A DNA stretch of 38,403 bases, taken from assembly GCA_025062235.1 (NCBI GenBank), contig JANXAE010000013.1, forward strand, positions 1 through 38,403, written 5' to 3'. Source of the DNA: Bryobacteraceae bacterium. Lineage in GTDB: Bacteria; Acidobacteriota; Terriglobia; Bryobacterales; Bryobacteraceae. Positions 7,701 to 28,877 of this stretch are shown here, in pieces. A model generated the notes under the pieces. It saw only the letters and a program-made list of their open reading frames with translations, was not told the DNA's origin and ran no database searches. Made by a program: the position numbers and the translations under genes. Positions within the stretch are counted from its first letter, which is position 1, and the number at the start of each line of letters is the position of its first letter.

Positions 7701-8429
7701 AAGTGGGGACAGCCGAGCGGCTTGGTTCTGCTGCTGCCTCACGGCTACGAAGGGCAGGGGCCCGAACACTCCAGCGCGCGCATCGAGCGCTTCCTTCAGT
7801 TGGCAGCGGCGGGCAACATTCAGGTGGCGTTCCCGAGCACGCCCGCGCAGTATTTCCACTTGCTGCGCAGGCAGATGTTCGGGGCCGGGGGACGTCCGCT
7901 GCGCAAGCCGCTGATCGTGTTCACCCCCAAGAGTCTGCTGCGTCACACGCGGTGCGTCTCGCGTGTGGAGGAGCTCATTTCAGGGACCTTCCGCGAGGTT
8001 CTGCCGGGGGCGACCCCGGCCGATCCGGAGGCCGTTGCACGTCTGCTGCTGTGCACGGGCAAGATCTTCTACGAGCTGGAGGCCGAGCGCGAGCGCTTGC
8101 AGGCCACCCAGGTAGCGATCGTGCGCATCGAGCAGCTCTATCCCTTCCCTCACCGGCAGGTGCACGAACTGCTGGAGAGCTTCCCCGCCACCGCCGAAGT
8201 GGCCTGGGTTCAGGAGGAGCCGCGCAACATGGGCGCGTGGCGTTTCGTGCAGGAGCAGGTCCAGCCGCTGCTGGCCGCTAGCAGGCGTTTGCTCGAGTAC
8301 GTGGGGCGCCCGGAAAGCCCCAGTCCGGCGACCGGTTCCTACAAGCGACACCTCGTCGAGCAGCGCGAAGTCATCGAGCGTGCGTTTCTGCCGGTCGGCG
8401 GCTTCAGCCGCTTGCGGCGCGCCGGTTGA
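4794..8429 (+). CDS. kgd: Multifunctional 2-oxoglutarate dehydrogenase (E2-catalytic domain fused to E1)
   Basis: A 1211-aa TCA-cycle enzyme of the actinobacterial KGD/OdhA architecture. Residues 1-45 resemble the E1 N-terminal segment (SWLEDELQQYYRHDP), then an Ala/Pro-rich linker. Residues 65-305 form a dihydrolipoyl succinyltransferase catalytic domain with the active-site His near 281 in YDHRIIQGAESG. The remainder is the ThDP-dependent E1 (MAHRGRLNVLAN, HGDAAFAGQG, INNQIGFTT, RRHGHNESDDP). There is no lipoyl or peripheral-subunit-binding domain in the chain, so it must use a lipoylated E2 encoded elsewhere. ATG 4794 is the natural start; the Shine-Dalgarno site is weak. No E2, E3 or OdhI-like FHA regulator gene is present in the window. 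Confidence 0.95.
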   Translation: MSRSAEVTLGINSWLEDELQQYYRHDPAAVDPSWRERFAHEARVEPRTPGPAAAASPPVAQAGSHEGELVPLRGVAGRIAENMNASLTVPTATSQRTIPVKVVEENRRIIHEHRELTGRGKVSYTHLIAWAVVQALKEFPVLNHAYVEKDGQPYRLVRSRIHLGIAVDVAGKDGSRALLVPNIKDAGSLDFRRFLDVYDDLIVRARSGKLSPEDFQGTTVSLTNPGTVGTVASVPRLMAGQGAIIATGVIDYPAEYRGVAPEVRAMLGIGKVMTITCTYDHRIIQGAESGLFLARVQALLEGADGFYDRMFADLGIPHRPVRWEPDRQACLPGAGDRLAEVAKEAAVLQLINAYRVRGHLLADLDPLGSAAAYHPELDPATYGLTIWDLDRPFITGTLAEALGHGGPQPVATLREILETLRRTYCGKIGCEYMHIQVPEQKRWLQQRMEPQANQWPLERETRLRILDRLLEAEALEHFLHARFVGHKRFSLEGAESAIPMLDELLFRACALGVEEAVIGMAHRGRLNVLANIVGKPVEQILSQFEMQDPESIQGSGDVKYHLGASGLRAYPNGRSIAVTVVPNPSHLEAVDPVVEGVARSKQSRRGPYGADQVLPVLIHGDAAFAGQGVVAETLNLSQLEGYWTGGTVHIVINNQIGFTTPPKEARSSVYATDVARMVQAPIFHVNGDDPEACLRAIQVAFEFRQRFHRDVVVDMFCYRRHGHNESDDPSYTQPVMYRKIREHPSVTTLYARRLIEEGLVSEEELDRKKAAIGERLARAYRAAQEGGVRFEMQEIGPLRELAPRARGAETAAGRDVLEQVVHGLARLPEGFRLHPKLRAFLERREQVFREGGPVDWALAEALAFGSLVLEGVPVRLSGQDSARGTFSQRHAILYDYEDGSEYCPLKHLAPGQASFEVYDSLLSENAVLGFEFGYSIADPHSLVIWEAQFGDFANGAQVVIDQFIAASEDKWGQPSGLVLLLPHGYEGQGPEHSSARIERFLQLAAAGNIQVAFPSTPAQYFHLLRRQMFGAGGRPLRKPLIVFTPKSLLRHTRCVSRVEELISGTFREVLPGATPADPEAVARLLLCTGKIFYELEAERERLQATQVAIVRIEQLYPFPHRQVHELLESFPATAEVAWVQEEPRNMGAWRFVQEQVQPLLAASRRLLEYVGRPESPSPATGSYKRHLVEQREVIERAFLPVGGFSRLRRAG

Positions 8430-8456
8430 GCCGGCCGCGCGCCGCCGTTCGGGCGT

Positions 8457-8462
8457 TACAAT
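8457..8462 (+). promoter_or_regulatory. Possible -10 box upstream of the YbjN gene
   Basis: TACAAT sits 92 bp before the YbjN ATG in the spacer after kgd. No convincing -35 hexamer lies 16-18 bp upstream, so this is only a candidate. Confidence 0.3.
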
Positions 8463-8554
8463 AGTGGCGGTTTTCGTTCACCGCTGGCGCCCGTGACGAG
8501 CCGCAGCCCGCCTCGGGCCGGGGCGAACGGACCGCTCATGGCAAGGAGGAGGCT

Positions 8555-8983
8555 ATGTGGCTGTTCGGCTCAAGGGAGCCCGCCAAAGGCATCATCACCA
8601 CCGTCAGTGGCGAGGAGATGGCCCAGCTCGTGCGCGAGGAGGGCTACGCGCCGGAGTTGGGTTTCGATTCGCACGGCGATCCCCTGATCCGCTTCCGCAT
8701 CGAGGGCTACAACTGCCTGCTCTTCTTTTACGGGGTCGAGGACGGGCGCGCCATGAGCCTGCAATTCCGCGCCGCATTCCGCGAGCAGGTGGACATCGAA
8801 AAGATCAACGAGTGGAACCGTAGGAAGCGGTTCCTGAAGGTTTACCTGGACGAGGACGGTGACATCAACATGGATATGGACGTAGATCTGGAGGGCGGCG
8901 TCACGCGCCAGTATCTGGTCGAACGACTGCGGACTTGGCGGGCCGCTTTCCTGGCCTGCGTACGTTTCATGTCCGAGCTCTGA
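8555..8983 (+). CDS. YbjN domain-containing protein
   Basis: A 142-aa cytosolic protein with a YbjN/DUF1790-type fold, related to type III secretion chaperone-like folds. The recognisable part is INEWNRRKRFLKVYLDEDG followed by an acidic strand DINMDMDVDLEGGV and a C-terminal helix. The molecular function of the family is unclear. The start at 8555 is well supported by AAGGAGGAGG four bases or so upstream, one of the strongest ribosome-binding sites in the window. It is followed by a GC-rich hairpin (9041-9074) and converges on the small exported-protein gene. Confidence 0.85.
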   Translation: MWLFGSREPAKGIITTVSGEEMAQLVREEGYAPELGFDSHGDPLIRFRIEGYNCLLFFYGVEDGRAMSLQFRAAFREQVDIEKINEWNRRKRFLKVYLDEDGDINMDMDVDLEGGVTRQYLVERLRTWRAAFLACVRFMSEL

Positions 8984-9040
8984 GGGTCGCGGCGCAAGTC
9001 GGACGCGCCACGGGCCGGTCGGTCTGCCTGAGGGGAAAAG

Positions 9041-9074
9041 CCCCTGGCGGTCCGGGACGGTGAACCGCCAGGGG
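9041..9074. terminator. Strong inverted repeat between convergent genes
   Basis: CCCCTGGCGGT and ACCGCCAGGGG form a perfect 11-bp stem with a 12-base loop between the YbjN stop and the small exported-protein stop. No T-run follows. The left arm can also pair with AGGGG at 9031-9035 (AGGGG-AAAAG-CCCCT), giving a mutually exclusive shorter hairpin. Likely a bidirectional terminator. Confidence 0.6.
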
Positions 9075-9104
9075 TGCGCGGGATTGCGGAGGGAGGGTCG
9101 GGAA

Positions 9105-9275
9105 TCAGGACTTGGGAGTTGCTTCCTTCTTCTTTTCTTCGCCCTTCTTGCGGGTCTTCTTCTTTTCCTGTTTCGTCTCCTGCTGCTCCTGCTTTTGCTC
9201 TTGCAGCGGCTGCGGTTGGGCCAATGCCGGCAGAGTCAGGCAGCCAGCGATCAAGGCAACGATCAGCTTCTTCAT
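9105..9275 (-). CDS. Small exported Lys/Glu/Gln-rich protein (missed by the ORF track)
   Basis: A 56-codon ORF below the track's length cut-off. It begins MKKLIVALIAGCLTLPALA, a textbook signal peptide with a signal-peptidase-I site after ALA. It continues as a short, highly charged tail of Gln, Glu and Lys (QEQKQEQQETKQEKKK) and ends EATPKS. AAGGAGG (9283-9289 on the complement) lies seven bases before the ATG, so translation is very credible. The mature part is about 37 residues, low-complexity and probably unstructured. A Cys at residue 12 preceded by IAG resembles a lipobox but the leader would be unusually short. Function unknown; similar small exported charged proteins are common in Acidobacteriota. 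Confidence 0.72.
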   Translation of the reverse strand: MKKLIVALIAGCLTLPALAQPQPLQEQKQEQQETKQEKKKTRKKGEEKKKEATPKS

Positions 9276-22550: not shown

Positions 22551-22808
22551 GCAAGGCCCTCGCCCGTGGAAATTCTCAACGTCTTGTTGAATCGCGAAAC
22601 GCCGCTGGCGACTTTCCATTCAGCGACTTCCGGATCTCTCGGTCAGGATATGCTGATTTCGTCAACAATGGTGTCTCGAGCCGGGCCTCCTACGCGAAGG
22701 GAGCCCGATCTTCTAAGCCGTTGAAATATTGCTGGCTACAAGCCACTTGGGACATCTGGCCAGTGCGGTGTGCGAATTGCTCAGCGATTGGTGAAAGGAG
22801 CACGCACC

Positions 22809-23474
22809 ATGGTCGCTCTGCTGGTTCTCGCAACGTTCGTTGCGTTCATCATCATTGACGTGCTACTTCACCGCGAGAAGTACCGCTTCCCGGTGGCCGA
22901 GCCCGTCCCCACGGAAGCCAAGCCCGAAACGGTACCGATGGTAGCTGGGGTGGCGCTGCCGGACACGCTGGCCTACCATCCCGGCCATACATGGGCGATG
23001 CAGCGGGGGCATGGGCGGATCCGGATCGGCGTGGATGAGTTCGCTGCGAGCCTTTTGGGCCGCGTGTTGAAAATCGAAGGGCCTCCGGCCGGGCGCTGGC
23101 TACGTCAAGGGGAAAAGGGTTGGACCATGAAAACCGTCCATGGCGAGGCGGTCATGGTAGCTCCGGTCGAGGGCGAGATCGTGGCGGTCAACGAGCGAGT
23201 GCGCGAGGACCCCTCGCTGGTGGGCCGCGATCCTTACGGGGCTGGCTGGCTGTACGAGGTCTATTCGCCGGACGTGGAGGTCAGCCTTCGCAACTTGCTT
23301 TCCGGGGCGCTGGCGCGGCGCTGGATGGAATGGGCGGTGATGGAGCTCCGCCAGATGCTGGCGCCGAACGCCCTCGCCACGGCGCTGGACGGCGGGCGGC
23401 TTCAGCCCGAACTGGGCTTGCAACTCGGCGCCGAGCGGTGGCGCGAGGTGACGCGCCGGTTCTTCCTCGTTTGA
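22809..23474 (+). CDS. Membrane-anchored GcvH-like protein lacking the lipoyl lysine
   Basis: 221 aa. Residues 3-20 form one TM helix (LLVLATFVAFIIIDVLL) followed by HREK, so the main domain probably faces the cytoplasm. Residues 55-155 resemble glycine-cleavage H protein: YHPGHTWA, IRIGVDEFAASLLGRV, APVEGEIVAVNERV, then DPYGAGWLYEV. Aligned by eye on APVxGEIVAVN, the position of the lipoylated Lys (ESVKA in H protein) is His 111 (KTVHG), so normal lipoylation is unlikely. A helical C-terminal extension follows. ATG 22809 is chosen over the track's 22770 because GAAAGGAG lies eight bases upstream. First gene of the redox island, ten bases before the ferredoxin gene. It should not be read as a glycine-cleavage component. 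Confidence 0.82.
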   Translation: MVALLVLATFVAFIIIDVLLHREKYRFPVAEPVPTEAKPETVPMVAGVALPDTLAYHPGHTWAMQRGHGRIRIGVDEFAASLLGRVLKIEGPPAGRWLRQGEKGWTMKTVHGEAVMVAPVEGEIVAVNERVREDPSLVGRDPYGAGWLYEVYSPDVEVSLRNLLSGALARRWMEWAVMELRQMLAPNALATALDGGRLQPELGLQLGAERWREVTRRFFLV

Positions 23475-23483
23475 GGTGTCCCC

Positions 23484-24245
23484 ATGCGAGCGCTGCTGTT
23501 TGACGTGACCCGGTGCGTCGGCTGCGGTGCCTGTGTGGCTGCCTGCTGCGAGGCCAATGGCTTGCCTGGGCCGGAGAGCACCGATCTCGGTCCCAGTCGC
23601 TACACGGTCGTCCGCAAGACGACGACCCCGACAGGGGAGGTCTACTATCGGCGGCTGTGCATGCATTGCCTGGATCCTGCCTGCGCCTCGGTGTGTCCGA
23701 TCGGCGCCCTGAAGAAGTCCGCCTCGGGGCCGGTGGTCTACGACGCCTCGGTGTGCATGGGCTGCCGCTACTGCCTGCAAGCCTGCCCTTTCGAAATCCC
23801 CCGCTACGAGTGGAACAGCCGTGCGCCCAAGCTCGGCAAGTGCTCACTCTGCGCGGGCCGGCTGGCGAAGGGGAAGCCGACGGCTTGCGCCGAGGTCTGC
23901 CCTACGGGCGCGACGATCTACGGGGAGCGCACCGAGCTGCTCAAGGAGGCGCGGGCTCGCATTGCCGCCGAGCCGGACAAGTACGTGCACCACGTCTATG
24001 GCGAGCGGGAAGTGGGCGGGACCTGCGTGCTCTTTCTCTCGAATGTGCCGTTCCGCAGGCTGGGCCTGCCCGAGAACCTGCCGCTGGAGCCGCTGCCCAA
24101 CTACACCGGCCGCGCGCTGTCGCAGATCCCGCCCTTGGTCGGGTCGGCAGGGATCCTGCTGGCCGGGCTGTGGTGGCTGACCAATCGCAAACAGGAAGTG
24201 GCCCGTGCCGAGTGCGTCGGGCGGGCGGGAGGTAACGCGGCATGA
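23484..24245 (+). CDS. 4Fe-4S dicluster ferredoxin-type electron-transfer subunit, C-terminally anchored
   Basis: A 253-aa subunit like HybA/HmcB/FdnH. Four cysteine groups for four [4Fe-4S] clusters are visible: CVGCGACVAAC, CMHCLDPACASVCP, CMGCRYCLQACP and CSLC...CAEVCP. A hydrophobic helix near residues 215-235 (SAGILLAGLWWL) anchors the C-terminus. There is no N-terminal Tat signal, so unlike HybA the clusters are probably on the cytoplasmic side. It should pass electrons between a partner and the quinone-reactive NrfD-like subunit encoded next. GAGGTG precedes ATG 23484; the stop overlaps the NrfD start (ATGA). Confidence 0.92.
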   Translation: MRALLFDVTRCVGCGACVAACCEANGLPGPESTDLGPSRYTVVRKTTTPTGEVYYRRLCMHCLDPACASVCPIGALKKSASGPVVYDASVCMGCRYCLQACPFEIPRYEWNSRAPKLGKCSLCAGRLAKGKPTACAEVCPTGATIYGERTELLKEARARIAAEPDKYVHHVYGEREVGGTCVLFLSNVPFRRLGLPENLPLEPLPNYTGRALSQIPPLVGSAGILLAGLWWLTNRKQEVARAECVGRAGGNAA

Positions 24246-25387
24246 TCCAGCGACTGTTCTGGCGTTGGCTGGCCCTGGCCATTCTCGCCGCGGGCGCTTA
24301 CGCGACAGTGGTGCGGTTCGCCAAGGGTCTGGGCGCCGCCACCAATCTTTCCGATCAGATGCCGTGGGGCTTGTGGGTAGGCTTCGACGTGCTCTGCGGC
24401 GTGGGTCTGGCGGCGGGCGGGTTCACGATCACCACAGCGGTTTACATTCTGCACCTGGAAAAGCTGCGTCCGATCGTCCGGCCCGCGGTGCTGACGGCTT
24501 TCTTGGGTTACCTGCTCGTGATCCTCGCGCTCGTCTACGACCTCGGACGGCCGTGGAACATCTGGCGGGCGACCGTGATGTGGAATCCGCGCTCGGTCAT
24601 GTTCGAGGTCGCCTGGTGCGTGATGCTCTACACGACCGTGCTTGCGGTGGAATTCTCGCCCCTGCTCTTCGACAAGCTGGGATGGTGGCGCGCCTCACGG
24701 GTGGCGCGCGCAGCGATCGTGCCGCTGACGGCGGCGGGCTTCATTCTTTCCACGCTGCACCAGTCCTCCCTCGGCAGCCTCTACTTGATCCTGCCCACCA
24801 AGTTGCACCCTCTCTGGTACAGCCCCTTGCTGCCTTGGTTGTTCTGGTTTTCGGCTGTCGCGGGCGGACTGGCAATGGTAATCTTTGAGAGCGGGATGAG
24901 CGCGCGGGCTTTCGGGCGGGCGCTGGAGCTGGACGTCCTGGAAAAGCTGGCCAGGGCGATGGCGGTCTTCGTCGGCCTATTCGTGTTCCTGCGCTGGTGG
25001 GACCTTCTGGTGCGCGGCCACGCCGCCGCCGCCCTGCATGTTGCAGGGCCGGGTTCGCTGGCTGTGCAGCTGTTCTGGCTTGAGCAGGCGCTTTTCCTCG
25101 TGCCCGCTGGGCTGGCGCTCTCGGCGCGGTGGCGGCACAATCCGCAGCGGCTGTTCGCCCTGGCTTGCACGCTGGTGGCAGGCTTCCTGGTGCACCGGTT
25201 GAACGTTTCCACGACGGCGCTGGCTGCAGGCTCGAGCTACCTTCCCTCCTGGATGGAGGTCGCAGTGACCCTGATGCTGGTGACGCTGGGTGTGGTTGCG
25301 TTCCGGTGGGCCGTGCGTCATCTGGCCGTCTTCCCGTCACCGCACCGCCTGAAGGAGGAGCAACCGGCGCAGGCTGTGTATGCATAG
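24242..25387 (+). CDS. NrfD/HybB-like integral membrane quinone-interacting subunit
   Basis: 381 aa with about ten hydrophobic helices. The N-terminal half matches the HybB/NrfD (PsrC) family, with the pattern DQMPWGLWVGFDVLCGVGLAAGGF and DLGRPWNIWRA. Family members oxidise or reduce menaquinone/ubiquinone and exchange electrons with a ferredoxin-type partner, here the preceding gene. No catalytic molybdenum, hydrogenase or multihaem subunit is encoded in the window, so the ultimate substrate is open. Overlaps the upstream gene by 4 nt and the downstream kinase by 8 nt, implying tight translational coupling. Confidence 0.9.
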   Translation: MIQRLFWRWLALAILAAGAYATVVRFAKGLGAATNLSDQMPWGLWVGFDVLCGVGLAAGGFTITTAVYILHLEKLRPIVRPAVLTAFLGYLLVILALVYDLGRPWNIWRATVMWNPRSVMFEVAWCVMLYTTVLAVEFSPLLFDKLGWWRASRVARAAIVPLTAAGFILSTLHQSSLGSLYLILPTKLHPLWYSPLLPWLFWFSAVAGGLAMVIFESGMSARAFGRALELDVLEKLARAMAVFVGLFVFLRWWDLLVRGHAAAALHVAGPGSLAVQLFWLEQALFLVPAGLALSARWRHNPQRLFALACTLVAGFLVHRLNVSTTALAAGSSYLPSWMEVAVTLMLVTLGVVAFRWAVRHLAVFPSPHRLKEEQPAQAVYA

Positions 25388-26978
25388 GTTGGGCGTCAAG
25401 TTGACGGCGGGGCTGGCGGTGGCGATGGCCGCCGTCCTGCTGTGGCTGGGCAAAGCCAATCTGCGTGTGCTCCGCGAGAACCTGGAGACCACGGCGGTGC
25501 TTTCGGCCCGCAGCATCGCCGACATCATCTTCCGCGCCACGCACGACTCGATGATGCACAACAACCGCGAGGAGCTGATGCACATCATCCACAGCATCGG
25601 CGCGCAGACGGGCGTGCGGAAGATCCGGGTGTTCAACAAGAACGGCACGATCCAGCTTTCCACGCACGCGGGCGAGGTGGGCCAGATGGTGGATCAGCGG
25701 GCCGAAGCCTGCTACGCCTGCCATGCCTCGGACACCCCGCTCGAGAAGCCGGCCGCGCAGCACACCTACCGCTTCTACCGCATGGGGCAGGAGCGCCTGA
25801 TCGGGCTGATCCGCCCGATCGAGAACGAGCCGGCGTGCTCGAACGCATACTGCCATGCCCACCCACCCTCGCAGCGCATACTGGGAGTGCTGGACGTGGT
25901 GCTTTCCCTGGAGCCGGTGGACGAGGCGTTGGCGGCGCACGAGCGGCGCATGCGCGCCCAGGTGCTGATTTCCGCGGCCGTGCTGGTGCTGGTCGGGGGC
26001 CTGCTGGTATGGCTGCTCATCTCGCGCCCCATCCGGCGGTTGATCGAGGGTGTGAACCGGCTGGCGCAGGGTGAACTTTCCTGGCGGTTCCGCATCGAGC
26101 GCCGTGACGAGATCGGCGCCCTGGCCCGCGCCTTCGATCACATGGCGGAACAGGTCGAGTCGGCCAACCGCACCTTGGAGGAGAGGATCCGCCGCAAGAC
26201 CCAGGAGCTCGAGGCTGCCCAGCAGAAGCTGATCCACACGGAGAAGTTGGCCTCGCTCGGCCAGCTCGCAGCCGCAGTCGCGCACGAGATCAACAACCCG
26301 CTGGCCGGTATTTACACCTACGCGCGCCTGTTGGAGAAGAAGGCCGCCCTTTCGGGACCCGCGCTCGAATGGGTGCAAACCATCCAGCGGGAGAGCCGCC
26401 GCTGCGGCGACATCGCCAACAGCCTGCTCGTGTTCGCGCGCAAACAACCCACGCAGACGGCGCCCTGCGACCTGCGCACCATCGTGCGCTATACGCTGGC
26501 CGTGCTCGAGCACAAGTTCCAGGGCGCCGGCATCGAGGTGATCCAGGAGATCCCCGATCTGCCGCCCATTCCCTGCGACGGCTCGCAGATCCAGCAGGTG
26601 CTCACGGCTATCCTGGTCAACGCGGTGGATGCGATCGGCAGCCGCCCGGACCGGCGTGGCAGGATCGCGATCCGCGCCTCCCTGACGCCGGACGAGCGGG
26701 TGGACATCGCCATCAGCAACAACGGCCCCCCGATCCCCGAGGACGTTCTGCCCCGCATCTTCGAACCGTTCTTCTCGACCAAGCAGGCCGCCGCCGGCGT
26801 GGGACTGGGACTGTCGGTAGCCTATGGCATCGTGCAGCGGCACGGCGGCGAGATCCAGGTCTTCTCGAAGGAGGAGGAAACCACCTTCCACGTGCTGCTG
26901 CCGCTGGGTGAAGCCGCCAAATCCGCGGCCCCGGAGTCGTCCGATGTCCGAGCCGAAGCCCTCCATTCTGATCGTTGA
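25380..26978 (+). CDS. Sensor histidine kinase with c-type haem-binding sensor domain
   Basis: 532 aa. TM1 is at about 7-24, the periplasmic sensor at about 25-192 and TM2 at about 193-214, followed by HAMP, a coiled coil, HisKA with His 302 (AVAHEINNPLAG) and HATPase (NAVDAI, GVGLGLSVAYGI). The sensor holds CYACH (111-115, CxxCH) and CSNAYCH (153-159, CX4CH), both covalent haem c attachment patterns. Between them lies IGLIRPIENEP. This points to a haem-based redox or gas sensor, like haem-containing sensors known in Geobacter. ATG 25380 overlaps the NrfD gene; the 3' end overlaps the sigma-54 regulator gene by 35 nt. The kinase class (NtrB/ZraS-like) fits a sigma-54 partner. Confidence 0.92.
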   Translation: MHRLGVKLTAGLAVAMAAVLLWLGKANLRVLRENLETTAVLSARSIADIIFRATHDSMMHNNREELMHIIHSIGAQTGVRKIRVFNKNGTIQLSTHAGEVGQMVDQRAEACYACHASDTPLEKPAAQHTYRFYRMGQERLIGLIRPIENEPACSNAYCHAHPPSQRILGVLDVVLSLEPVDEALAAHERRMRAQVLISAAVLVLVGGLLVWLLISRPIRRLIEGVNRLAQGELSWRFRIERRDEIGALARAFDHMAEQVESANRTLEERIRRKTQELEAAQQKLIHTEKLASLGQLAAAVAHEINNPLAGIYTYARLLEKKAALSGPALEWVQTIQRESRRCGDIANSLLVFARKQPTQTAPCDLRTIVRYTLAVLEHKFQGAGIEVIQEIPDLPPIPCDGSQIQQVLTAILVNAVDAIGSRPDRRGRIAIRASLTPDERVDIAISNNGPPIPEDVLPRIFEPFFSTKQAAAGVGLGLSVAYGIVQRHGGEIQVFSKEEETTFHVLLPLGEAAKSAAPESSDVRAEALHSDR

Positions 26979-28308
26979 CGACGAGCAGGTCGTACGCGAC
27001 TCGCTGGTGCACTGGTTTGCCGAGGAAGGCTACCACGTGGAGGCCGCTGCCAGCGCCGCCGAGGCGCTGGCGCGGCTGGCGGCGGGCGACCTGGACCTGG
27101 TCATCGCCGACATCCGCATGCCGGGCATGGACGGGTTGGAGCTGCTCGAGCGCATCCAGTCCGAACAGCTCGACACCGCGGTCATCGTCATGACCGGCTA
27201 CGCCAGCGTGGAGAGCGCGGTGCGCGCGCTCAAGCACGGGGCCTTCGATTACGTCACCAAACCGTTCGATCCGGACGATCTTTCCGTGGTGGTGCGCAAC
27301 GCCATCGAGCAACAGCGCCTGAAACGCGAGAACCGCATGCTGCGCGAACAGCTCAGCGAGTCGCTGGCCACCACCGAGCTGGTCGGGCAGAGCGAAGCCA
27401 TGCGGCGGGTGCGCGAACAGATCGAGACCGTGGCGCCGGTGGACACCACGGTTCTGATCGTGGGCGAAAGCGGAACCGGCAAGGAGCTGGTGGCGCGGGC
27501 CATCCATCGCCTCAGCCCCCGACGATACAACCCCATGGTGGTCGTGCATTGCGGCGCGCTCACCGAAACGCTGATCGAAAGCGAACTCTTCGGCCACGAA
27601 AAGGGTGCTTTCACCGGCGCGCAGTATCGCAAGAAGGGCAAGTTCGAAGCGGCCCATGGCGGCACGATCTTCCTGGACGAGATCGCCGACATCAGCCTGA
27701 AGACGCAGACGGACCTGCTGCGCGTCTTGCAGGAACGCGAGATCGTGCGCGTGGGAGGCACGCAGCCCATCAAGGTGGACTTCCGCGTCGTCGCGGCCAC
27801 CAATCGCGACTTGGCGGAGCTGGTCAAGGAGGGACGCTTCCGCTCGGATCTGTACTACCGGCTGAACGTCTTCACCATTCAACTGCCGCCGCTGCGGGAG
27901 CGCCACGGCGACGTGCCCCTGTTGGCGCAGTACTTCCTCGAGAAGTACAGTCGTCAGATGAACCGCAGGTTCACCGGGTTCGACCGCGCCGCCATGGAGA
28001 TTCTGGTCAGCCACAACTGGCCCGGTAACGTGCGCGAGCTAGAGAACATCATCGAAAGGGCTGTCGTCGTGGGGCGCGAACCGCTCATCCGCGCTTCGGA
28101 TCTGGCGATCAACCGCTCGGTCGAGGTCGGCGAGGATCTGACGCTCGAGGCGGTCGAGCGCAAGCACATCATCCGGGTGCTCGAGGACTTCGGCTGGAAC
28201 CAGACCCAAGCCGCCAAAGCCTTGGGCATAGACCGCGTCACGCTGTACCACAAGATCCGGCGCTACGGGTTGAAGCCGCCCGAGCGTACGCGGTCCACGC
28301 GTGTGTGA
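26944..28308 (+). CDS. Sigma-54-dependent response regulator (NtrC family)
   Basis: 454 aa. The receiver has Asp 12/13, phosphoacceptor Asp 56 (LVIADIRMPGMDG) and Lys 106. The AAA+ domain has Walker A GESGTGKE around 174-181, the sigma-54 contact loop GAFTGA at 221-226, Walker B TIFLDEIADI and an arginine-finger region FRSDLYYRLNV. A Fis-type helix-turn-helix lies at the end (NQTQAAKALGIDRVTLYHKI). All parts are intact. The track starts at 26824; ATG 26944 gives MSEPKPSILIVDDE and is correct. It should activate sigma-54 promoters in response to the overlapping haem kinase. I found no GG-N10-GC promoter in the 258 bp before the island, so the target may be elsewhere. Confidence 0.95.
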   Translation: MSEPKPSILIVDDEQVVRDSLVHWFAEEGYHVEAAASAAEALARLAAGDLDLVIADIRMPGMDGLELLERIQSEQLDTAVIVMTGYASVESAVRALKHGAFDYVTKPFDPDDLSVVVRNAIEQQRLKRENRMLREQLSESLATTELVGQSEAMRRVREQIETVAPVDTTVLIVGESGTGKELVARAIHRLSPRRYNPMVVVHCGALTETLIESELFGHEKGAFTGAQYRKKGKFEAAHGGTIFLDEIADISLKTQTDLLRVLQEREIVRVGGTQPIKVDFRVVAATNRDLAELVKEGRFRSDLYYRLNVFTIQLPPLRERHGDVPLLAQYFLEKYSRQMNRRFTGFDRAAMEILVSHNWPGNVRELENIIERAVVVGREPLIRASDLAINRSVEVGEDLTLEAVERKHIIRVLEDFGWNQTQAAKALGIDRVTLYHKIRRYGLKPPERTRSTRV

Positions 28309-28877
28309 ACCGTCCGTCTCCAGTGCCGGGCGCCCGTCTGGTCGCCGTAGGCGACTTTCCCGAGACCCTGCTTGCGGAACTTTCCCGCCGCAGCGGCTTG
28401 CCTCGGATGCCCGGCCGTTTCGATCCTGCCCCCGCGTGGGATCCCGCGCGCGGACAGTGCGATTCCACCCGCCTCATCCTGGCGTTGCGCGCGCGCTACG
28501 CCCTCCCTGTCGTGGGCGCCACCACGCTCGACCTGTTCATCCCCGTGTTCAGCTTCGTTTTCGGCGAGGCGGAGCTCGGGGGGCGCGCCGCGGTCTTCTC
28601 CATCCACCGGCTGCGTGAGGAGTTCTACGGCCTGCCGCCCGACCCCGGGCGGCTCGTCGAGCGCGCGCTGCGCGAGCTGTTGCACGAGCTGGGACACATG
28701 GCAGGACTGGTGCATTGCCACGAGGCGGCCTGTGTCATGCGGCCCTCGCACTCGGTCGAGCAGGTGGACGCGCGAATGGACGACTACTGCGAGTCTTGCT
28801 GGAGCCTGATCGGGCAAAGACGGGCGATGGCCCGCGTCAGTGAGCCTCCGCCTCCAGAAAGCGCTCCGCTTCGATAG
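28305..28877 (+). CDS. Archaemetzincin-type zinc metalloprotease
   Basis: A 190-aa protein with the archaemetzincin signature: HELGHMAGLVHCHEAACVM, that is HExxHxxGxxxCx4CxM, then CESC sixteen residues later. The first zinc is held by the three His; the four Cys form the second structural zinc site seen in AmzA structures. Members are putative peptidases of unclear physiological substrate. GTG 28305 overlaps the regulator's TGA (GTGA), so translation is coupled to the sigma-54 regulator. The 3' end runs 41 nt into the convergent trxB. No signal peptide, so cytosolic. Confidence 0.92.
   Translation: MNRPSPVPGARLVAVGDFPETLLAELSRRSGLPRMPGRFDPAPAWDPARGQCDSTRLILALRARYALPVVGATTLDLFIPVFSFVFGEAELGGRAAVFSIHRLREEFYGLPPDPGRLVERALRELLHELGHMAGLVHCHEAACVMRPSHSVEQVDARMDDYCESCWSLIGQRRAMARVSEPPPPESAPLR

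Follow-up and report, generated by a model that had tools for sequence, protein, structure and literature searches.

Is a protein with the fold of the glycine-cleavage H protein still part of glycine cleavage when its gene heads a respiratory cluster and the lysine that carries lipoate is missing? This question is raised by a gene, here called gcvA, in a 38,403-nucleotide stretch of DNA from a Bryobacteraceae bacterium (contig JANXAE010000013.1), referred to below as the window. An earlier note, made from the sequence alone, had read the product as a membrane-tethered GcvH-like domain with His in place of the lipoyl lysine, repurposed among redox genes and liable to be mislabelled by automated annotation.

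The gene and the fold of its product

gcvA starts with an ATG at 22809, and its stop codon ends at 23474. An alternative GTG start, at 22770, would give the product extra positive residues ahead of the transmembrane (TM) helix. It is disfavoured by the ribosome-binding site and by conservation of Met1, which is kept in 99% of homologues. Compared with its nearest relatives, gcvA has a dN/dS of ~0.1 (dN 0.12, dS about 1.3-1.6), indicating a real gene under purifying selection. The features of the gene and its product are as follows.

22794..22800, + strand: ribosome-binding site AAAGGAG, 8 nt 5' of the gcvA ATG
22809..23474, + strand: gcvA, encoding a TM-anchored, Lys-less GcvH-fold protein of 221 aa (Pfam, homologue alignment, AlphaFold model, Foldseek)
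22812..22871, + strand: N-terminal TM helix, residues 2-21 (AlphaFold model; charge bias over 100 homologues)
22971..23303, + strand: H-protein domain, residues 55-165 (Pfam GCV_H; PDB matches)
23139..23141, + strand: His111 codon at the lipoyl-lysine position, tip of the hairpin 103-117 (phmmer, MAFFT, AlphaFold model)
23304..23471, + strand: C-terminal helical extension carrying D194-G-G and W211, both specific to the family (alignments, AlphaFold model)

GcvA is a complete H-protein fold with one N-terminal TM helix and a C-terminal extension. Pfam GCV_H matches residues 55-165 with an E-value of 3.7e-20 and a score of 72.5 bits (cut-off 22.2), and a phmmer search of the PDB aligns residues 50-152 without gaps to the E. 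coli H protein (3a8i, E=4.5e-17); the H proteins of E. coli and T. thermophilus are the nearest solved structures. An AlphaFold model, built from a 21-sequence alignment, has a mean pLDDT of 88.9. The structural comparison that the earlier note had proposed bears out its assignment of the domain: in a Foldseek search of the PDB the model superposes best on the T. thermophilus H protein (1onl_A; E=1.5e-12, TM-score 0.91, 1.3 Å), and all 22 matches at E<=0.001 are to GcvH-L or to H proteins, alone or within complexes. The membrane tether is likewise seen in the model, where the helix at residues 2-21 has a pLDDT >90. Since there is no charge before this helix across 100 homologues, and a mean of +1.9 over the 12 residues that follow it, the H-domain is predicted to be cytoplasmic, and probably lies on that side.

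The window genome has a gcvH of its own, on contig C46, which keeps the lysine and directly precedes gcvP; this agrees with the view that gcvA encodes a repurposed H-fold rather than a glycine-cleavage part. The expected mislabelling is only half right, since GcvA passes the Pfam GCV_H cut-off but falls below the NCBIfam curated gcvH cut-offs (69.5 against 115.85 bits for TIGR00527, and 84 against 117 bits for NF002270). Membership of the known GcvH-like NCBIfam families was rejected by the same measure, with 34.9 bits against TIGR03077 (not_gcvH; cut-off 144.05) and 33 bits against NF045810 (GcvH_rel_desulf; cut-off 150).

Loss of the lipoyl lysine

His111 lies opposite the lipoyl lysine of the E. 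coli H protein (the K65 column) without gaps in the phmmer alignment to the PDB. MAFFT with E. coli GcvH gives the same pairing; the reference sequence used agrees with the PDB alignment. In the AlphaFold model, strands 103-109 and 112-117 are joined by a turn at 110-111, which places His111 at the hairpin tip and Lys108 within the preceding strand. Hence, alignment and model both reject Lys108, the residue that the earlier note had named as the alternative lipoyl site.

The homologue alignment finds the lysine consistently absent. Among 100 homologue rows, which come from loci, some taken twice, and so represent fewer than 100 distinct sequences, the lipoyl column has G in 82, S in 5, N in 4, D in 4, H in 3, Q in 2 and K in none; mostly, the lysine is replaced by a short R-[D/N/G]-G turn. 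A profile search over the collected loci gave 115 unique strong members, none with K, and among 32 weaker members in this search K is found only in a distant homologue (L140) and in the true GcvH of the window genome (L001). As a control, 19 of 19 genuine GcvHs from Acidobacteriota, plus that of E. coli, keep the lipoyl K and E14; the only control that lacks K, L206, belongs by its own sequence with the Lys-less proteins. All true GcvHs fall on one side of a branch with 100/100 support in a maximum-likelihood tree. On the basis of the column counts, controls and tree, we conclude that the loss of Lys characterizes the family, His being a local substitution: the conserved trait is the loss, and His itself is incidental. 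Thus, the earlier note had placed His111 correctly, whereas His as a conserved functional substitute for Lys is rejected, given its occurrence in 3 rows against 82 for Gly. Residues E12 and E14 of the E. coli H protein bind the amine of aminomethyl-lipoate (PMC7733448). The corresponding positions are Gly59 and Thr61 in GcvA, and G and T/A/S in nearly the whole family.

Could the site nevertheless retain a chemical function? GcvA might still be lipoylated on another lysine (K102 or K108) or, in relatives, on a lysine after the turn Gly; the window genome encodes lipA, and so makes lipoate, and 21% of homologues have a Lys at +1 from the site. However, no conserved Lys stands at or beside the hairpin tip, K108 is inside a strand in the model, and the E12/E14 pair is lost, so that we consider this very improbable. 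We give equally little credence to His111 as a purposeful replacement, such as a metal or haem ligand or a phospho-carrier: it sits exactly at the tip, but Gly is the norm there.

The operon, its distribution and its control

gcvA is the first gene of an operon in the order gcvA - ferB - nrfD - histidine kinase - sigma54 response regulator - archaemetzincin. The genes downstream of gcvA are the following.

23484..24245, + strand: ferB, four-[4Fe-4S] protein, HmcB/HybA-like, with no Tat leader and with a C-terminal hydrophobic helix (profile matches, sequence)
24242..25387, + strand: nrfD, HmcC/HybB-like NrfD-family quinone-site membrane subunit (profile matches)
25380..26978, + strand: HAMP histidine kinase, periplasmic sensor with CxxCH and Cx4CH haem-c motifs (domain matches, motifs)
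26944..28308, + strand: sigma54-activating response regulator, receiver-AAA+-Fis HTH (domain matches)
28305..28877, + strand: archaemetzincin (M54) metalloprotease, HExxHxxGxxHC intact (domain matches, motif)

Profile matches confirm the redox neighbours mentioned in the earlier note. FerB and NrfD together make up a CISM-type core (an NrfD membrane subunit and a 4x[4Fe-4S] subunit). NrfD matches PF03916 at 4.8e-21, and the best matches of FerB and NrfD are HmcB (260 bits), HmcC (305 bits) and the HybB-type PRK10881 (283 bits), below curated cut-offs. FerB has no Tat leader, yet positive residues follow its C-terminal helix, leaving its sidedness ambiguous. A domain search found no catalytic or multihaem subunit among the operon genes of the window; such subunits are present in the Qrc-type sister loci described below. 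One CxxCH and one Cx4CH motif occur in 45 of 52 kinase orthologues, and the window kinase bears a weak similarity to Mcp40H-20, a family of haem-c chemoreceptor sensors. The archaemetzincin, last gene of the operon, is retained in most complete loci.

The GcvA family occurs throughout Acidobacteriota, travelling with a respiratory electron-transfer cluster and redox-sensing regulators. A scan of a genome collection yielded 80 named loci, nearly all from Acidobacteriota by title; those titled as Acidimicrobiia (L057) and Bacillota (L112) may be mis-named bins. gcvA has all five partners in 36 of the 80 loci and, together with an additional gene, gcvB, in 2 more, while ~17 others have part of the set, often due to contig ends. 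In many loci the partners are on the opposite strand or reordered, with adjacency kept, and further classes of Acidobacteriota have the set too, with between one and three GcvH-like genes. Among 200 genomes of the class, 39 have gcvA and the window-type NrfD, 7 have gcvA only, none has NrfD only and 154 have neither (p=1e-34, ignoring relatedness); hence, all 39 genomes with this NrfD also carry gcvA. In this count, relatives of NrfD whose open frame is 620-700 aa long were treated as a separate family.

GcvA is often duplicated or triplicated in tandem. One such gene, gcvB, found in several genera, is a second, divergent copy right after gcvA in which the lipoyl Lys is also absent (L007:2225-2932; also L005, L010, L012, L021, L024 and L025). 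Other variants include paralogous gcvA-ferB-nrfD loci without adjoining regulators (L044, L136), three genera that keep gcvA, kinase and regulator without ferB/nrfD (L038, L040, L042), and solitary gcvA genes with the remaining set elsewhere in the genome (L133-L135). The neighbourhoods of lone gcvA genes have no single constant partner, and the only recurrent one is a ferredoxin-oxidoreductase/acetyl-CoA hydrolase cluster. Clusters for 2-oxoacid:ferredoxin oxidoreductase lie <=9 kb from gcvA in about 10 loci, and this enzyme and gcvA co-occur in 29 of 37 genomes (p=4e-16, ignoring relatedness). Together, the nearby clusters and the co-occurrence suggest a ferredoxin connection. A ferredoxin oxidoreductase probe had no match in the window genome, which is 81% complete. 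Where the oxidoreductase genes are a few kb from gcvA, they are mostly accompanied by acetyl-CoA hydrolase (L092:3973-9419; also L047, L070, L062, L066 and L059).

We scanned for sigma54 (-24/-12) sites within 200 nt upstream of start codons, allowing <=2 mismatches and deriving the expectation from dinucleotide shuffles. Of 63 operon-linked gcvA loci, 49 have such a site where 4.6 would be expected, and so do all 22 lone gcvA loci, against an expectation of 1.3; most of the sites are 45-95 nt from the start codon. Sites upstream of nrfD, the kinase, the regulator and the archaemetzincin are at about background, and those upstream of ferB are modestly enriched. Most gcvA orthologues have strong sites; in the window and its nearest relatives the site is in the same place, but degenerate.

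22766..22781, + strand: candidate weak sigma54 (-24/-12) site CGGTGTGCGAATTGCT, 3 mismatches, 43 nt before the gcvA ATG (sigma54 scan)

We infer that the activator of gcvA is the operon's own sigma54 regulator, which would act in trans on lone copies.

In three acidobacterial sister loci, a QrcABCD complex is flanked by another pair of H-like proteins without the Lys and by a kinase-archaemetzincin-response regulator set.

L138:4537-15378 (also L137, L139): locus for a QrcABCD-like menaquinone reductase, with two GcvH-like proteins that lack the Lys

QrcA and QrcD score above the NCBIfam cut-offs, and QrcC and QrcB below. In a 2021 review (PMC8076601), QrcD was assigned to Deltaproteobacteria alone. 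The H-like proteins of this locus (L138:14230-15378 and 8316-9161, - strand) have N-terminal segments rich in Cys (CPFL...C; CRH...C...CxxC), for which Pfam has no matching family and which may bind metal. Glycine cleavage and GcvH are unmentioned in the NrfD review and the Qrc paper that we searched, and our literature search returned no paper joining GcvH, NrfD and lipoyl, or archaemetzincin with NrfD.

Possible roles of GcvA and comparison with known systems

Because the Lys is lost and the family travels with a redox cluster and its regulators, GcvA has evidently been given a new job. We infer, with about an even chance of being right, that it serves a redox-induced FeS-NrfD quinone oxidoreductase as a docking or structural subunit that is not lipoylated and probably faces the cytoplasm. 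As a non-catalytic subunit of FerB-NrfD, GcvA would be kept beside NrfD by its TM helix, with the H-domain probably at the cytoplasmic face, where its barrel-sandwich surface would dock FerB and/or a soluble electron donor, e.g. ferredoxin; it would carry no substrate on a swinging arm. The di-haem-c kinase would sense the periplasmic redox state and phosphorylate the sigma54 regulator; when conditions are reducing or electron acceptors scarce, this would turn on gcvA and the complex. This reading is favoured by the loss of Lys and E12/E14, the synteny and co-occurrence, the regulator-free gcvA-ferB-nrfD loci, the H-like proteins of the Qrc loci, the sigma54 sites and the ferredoxin clusters. 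Against it stand the lack of a ferredoxin oxidoreductase match in the window genome, the ambiguous sidedness of FerB, the weak sigma54 site of the window, and the three genera with kinase and regulator but no ferB/nrfD, which a regulatory role fits equally well.

Those three genera speak for the main rival, that GcvA is a signalling adaptor whose H-fold senses the state of the quinone module, or of a cytoplasmic donor, and signals it to either the haem-c kinase or the response regulator. Such a role would also suit the soluble H-like protein of the Qrc locus, which has no signal or TM helix while the Qrc redox modules are periplasmic, and the sigma54 promoters retained by lone gcvA genes. However, a regulator's target need not belong to its signalling chain, and no set of kinase, regulator and protease of their own lies beside the paralogous gcvA-ferB-nrfD units; we regard an adaptor as possible, though not probable. 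An assembly factor that inserts or matures FerB (which lacks a Tat leader) or NrfD, and is absent from the finished complex, would account for the membrane tether, the conserved residues without cofactor ligands and the constant linkage to ferB-nrfD. We consider this unlikely, since frequent tandem duplication or triplication is unusual for a chaperone and gcvA is kept where ferB-nrfD is absent.

As a tentative proposal, the six genes could represent an undescribed energy module spread across the Acidobacteriota. FerB, NrfD and one to three tethered, lipoate-free H-proteins, the latter as donor-docking subunits, would form an oxidoreductase that passes electrons from ferredoxin (or another cytoplasmic donor) to menaquinone; its own di-haem-c kinase and sigma54 regulator would induce it, and archaemetzincin would be a sixth, unexplained partner. 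The six-gene set recurs throughout the Acidobacteriota, abundant soil bacteria about whose respiratory flexibility little is understood, and the sigma54 promoter signature and haem-c kinase offer a direct way to find out when the module is in use. Annotation based on Pfam will label the GcvA family as glycine-cleavage H protein, and so hide the module.

The closest matches of FerB and NrfD are in HmcBC/HybAB (the Hmc complex and [NiFe] hydrogenase-2); unlike these, the window operon encodes neither a hydrogenase nor a multihaem catalytic subunit, its FerB has no Tat leader, and a GcvH-like subunit is added. The QrcABCD menaquinone reductase is also an NrfD-family complex, and its acidobacterial loci share with the window operon Lys-less H-like proteins and the kinase-archaemetzincin-regulator set, whereas the window operon has no QrcA/QrcB. 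GcvA has in common with GcvH (PF01597, TIGR00527) the whole fold including the hairpin, and the HxW and PYG-GW motifs, but differs in the lack of the lipoyl Lys and E12/E14, in its N-terminal TM helix and C-terminal extension, and in not being linked to gcvT/gcvP. Simiate/ABITRAM (FAM206A), a eukaryotic, actin-linked protein with about 20% identity to H protein, is likewise thought to be H-protein-derived and put to other use (PMC3859600). LbpA, of the sHdr sulfur-oxidation pathway, is another GcvH derivative recruited to a redox pathway, and is defined by hdr linkage and a strictly conserved Lys, retained in all 95 aligned LbpAs (PMC6067878). GcvA has no Lys at the lipoyl position and no Cys, and no hdr genes were seen nearby. 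The GcvA family shows a further outcome for the H-protein fold in bacterial redox biology, in which the cofactor site was discarded and NrfD-type quinone complexes were joined, whereas LbpA keeps its lipoate.
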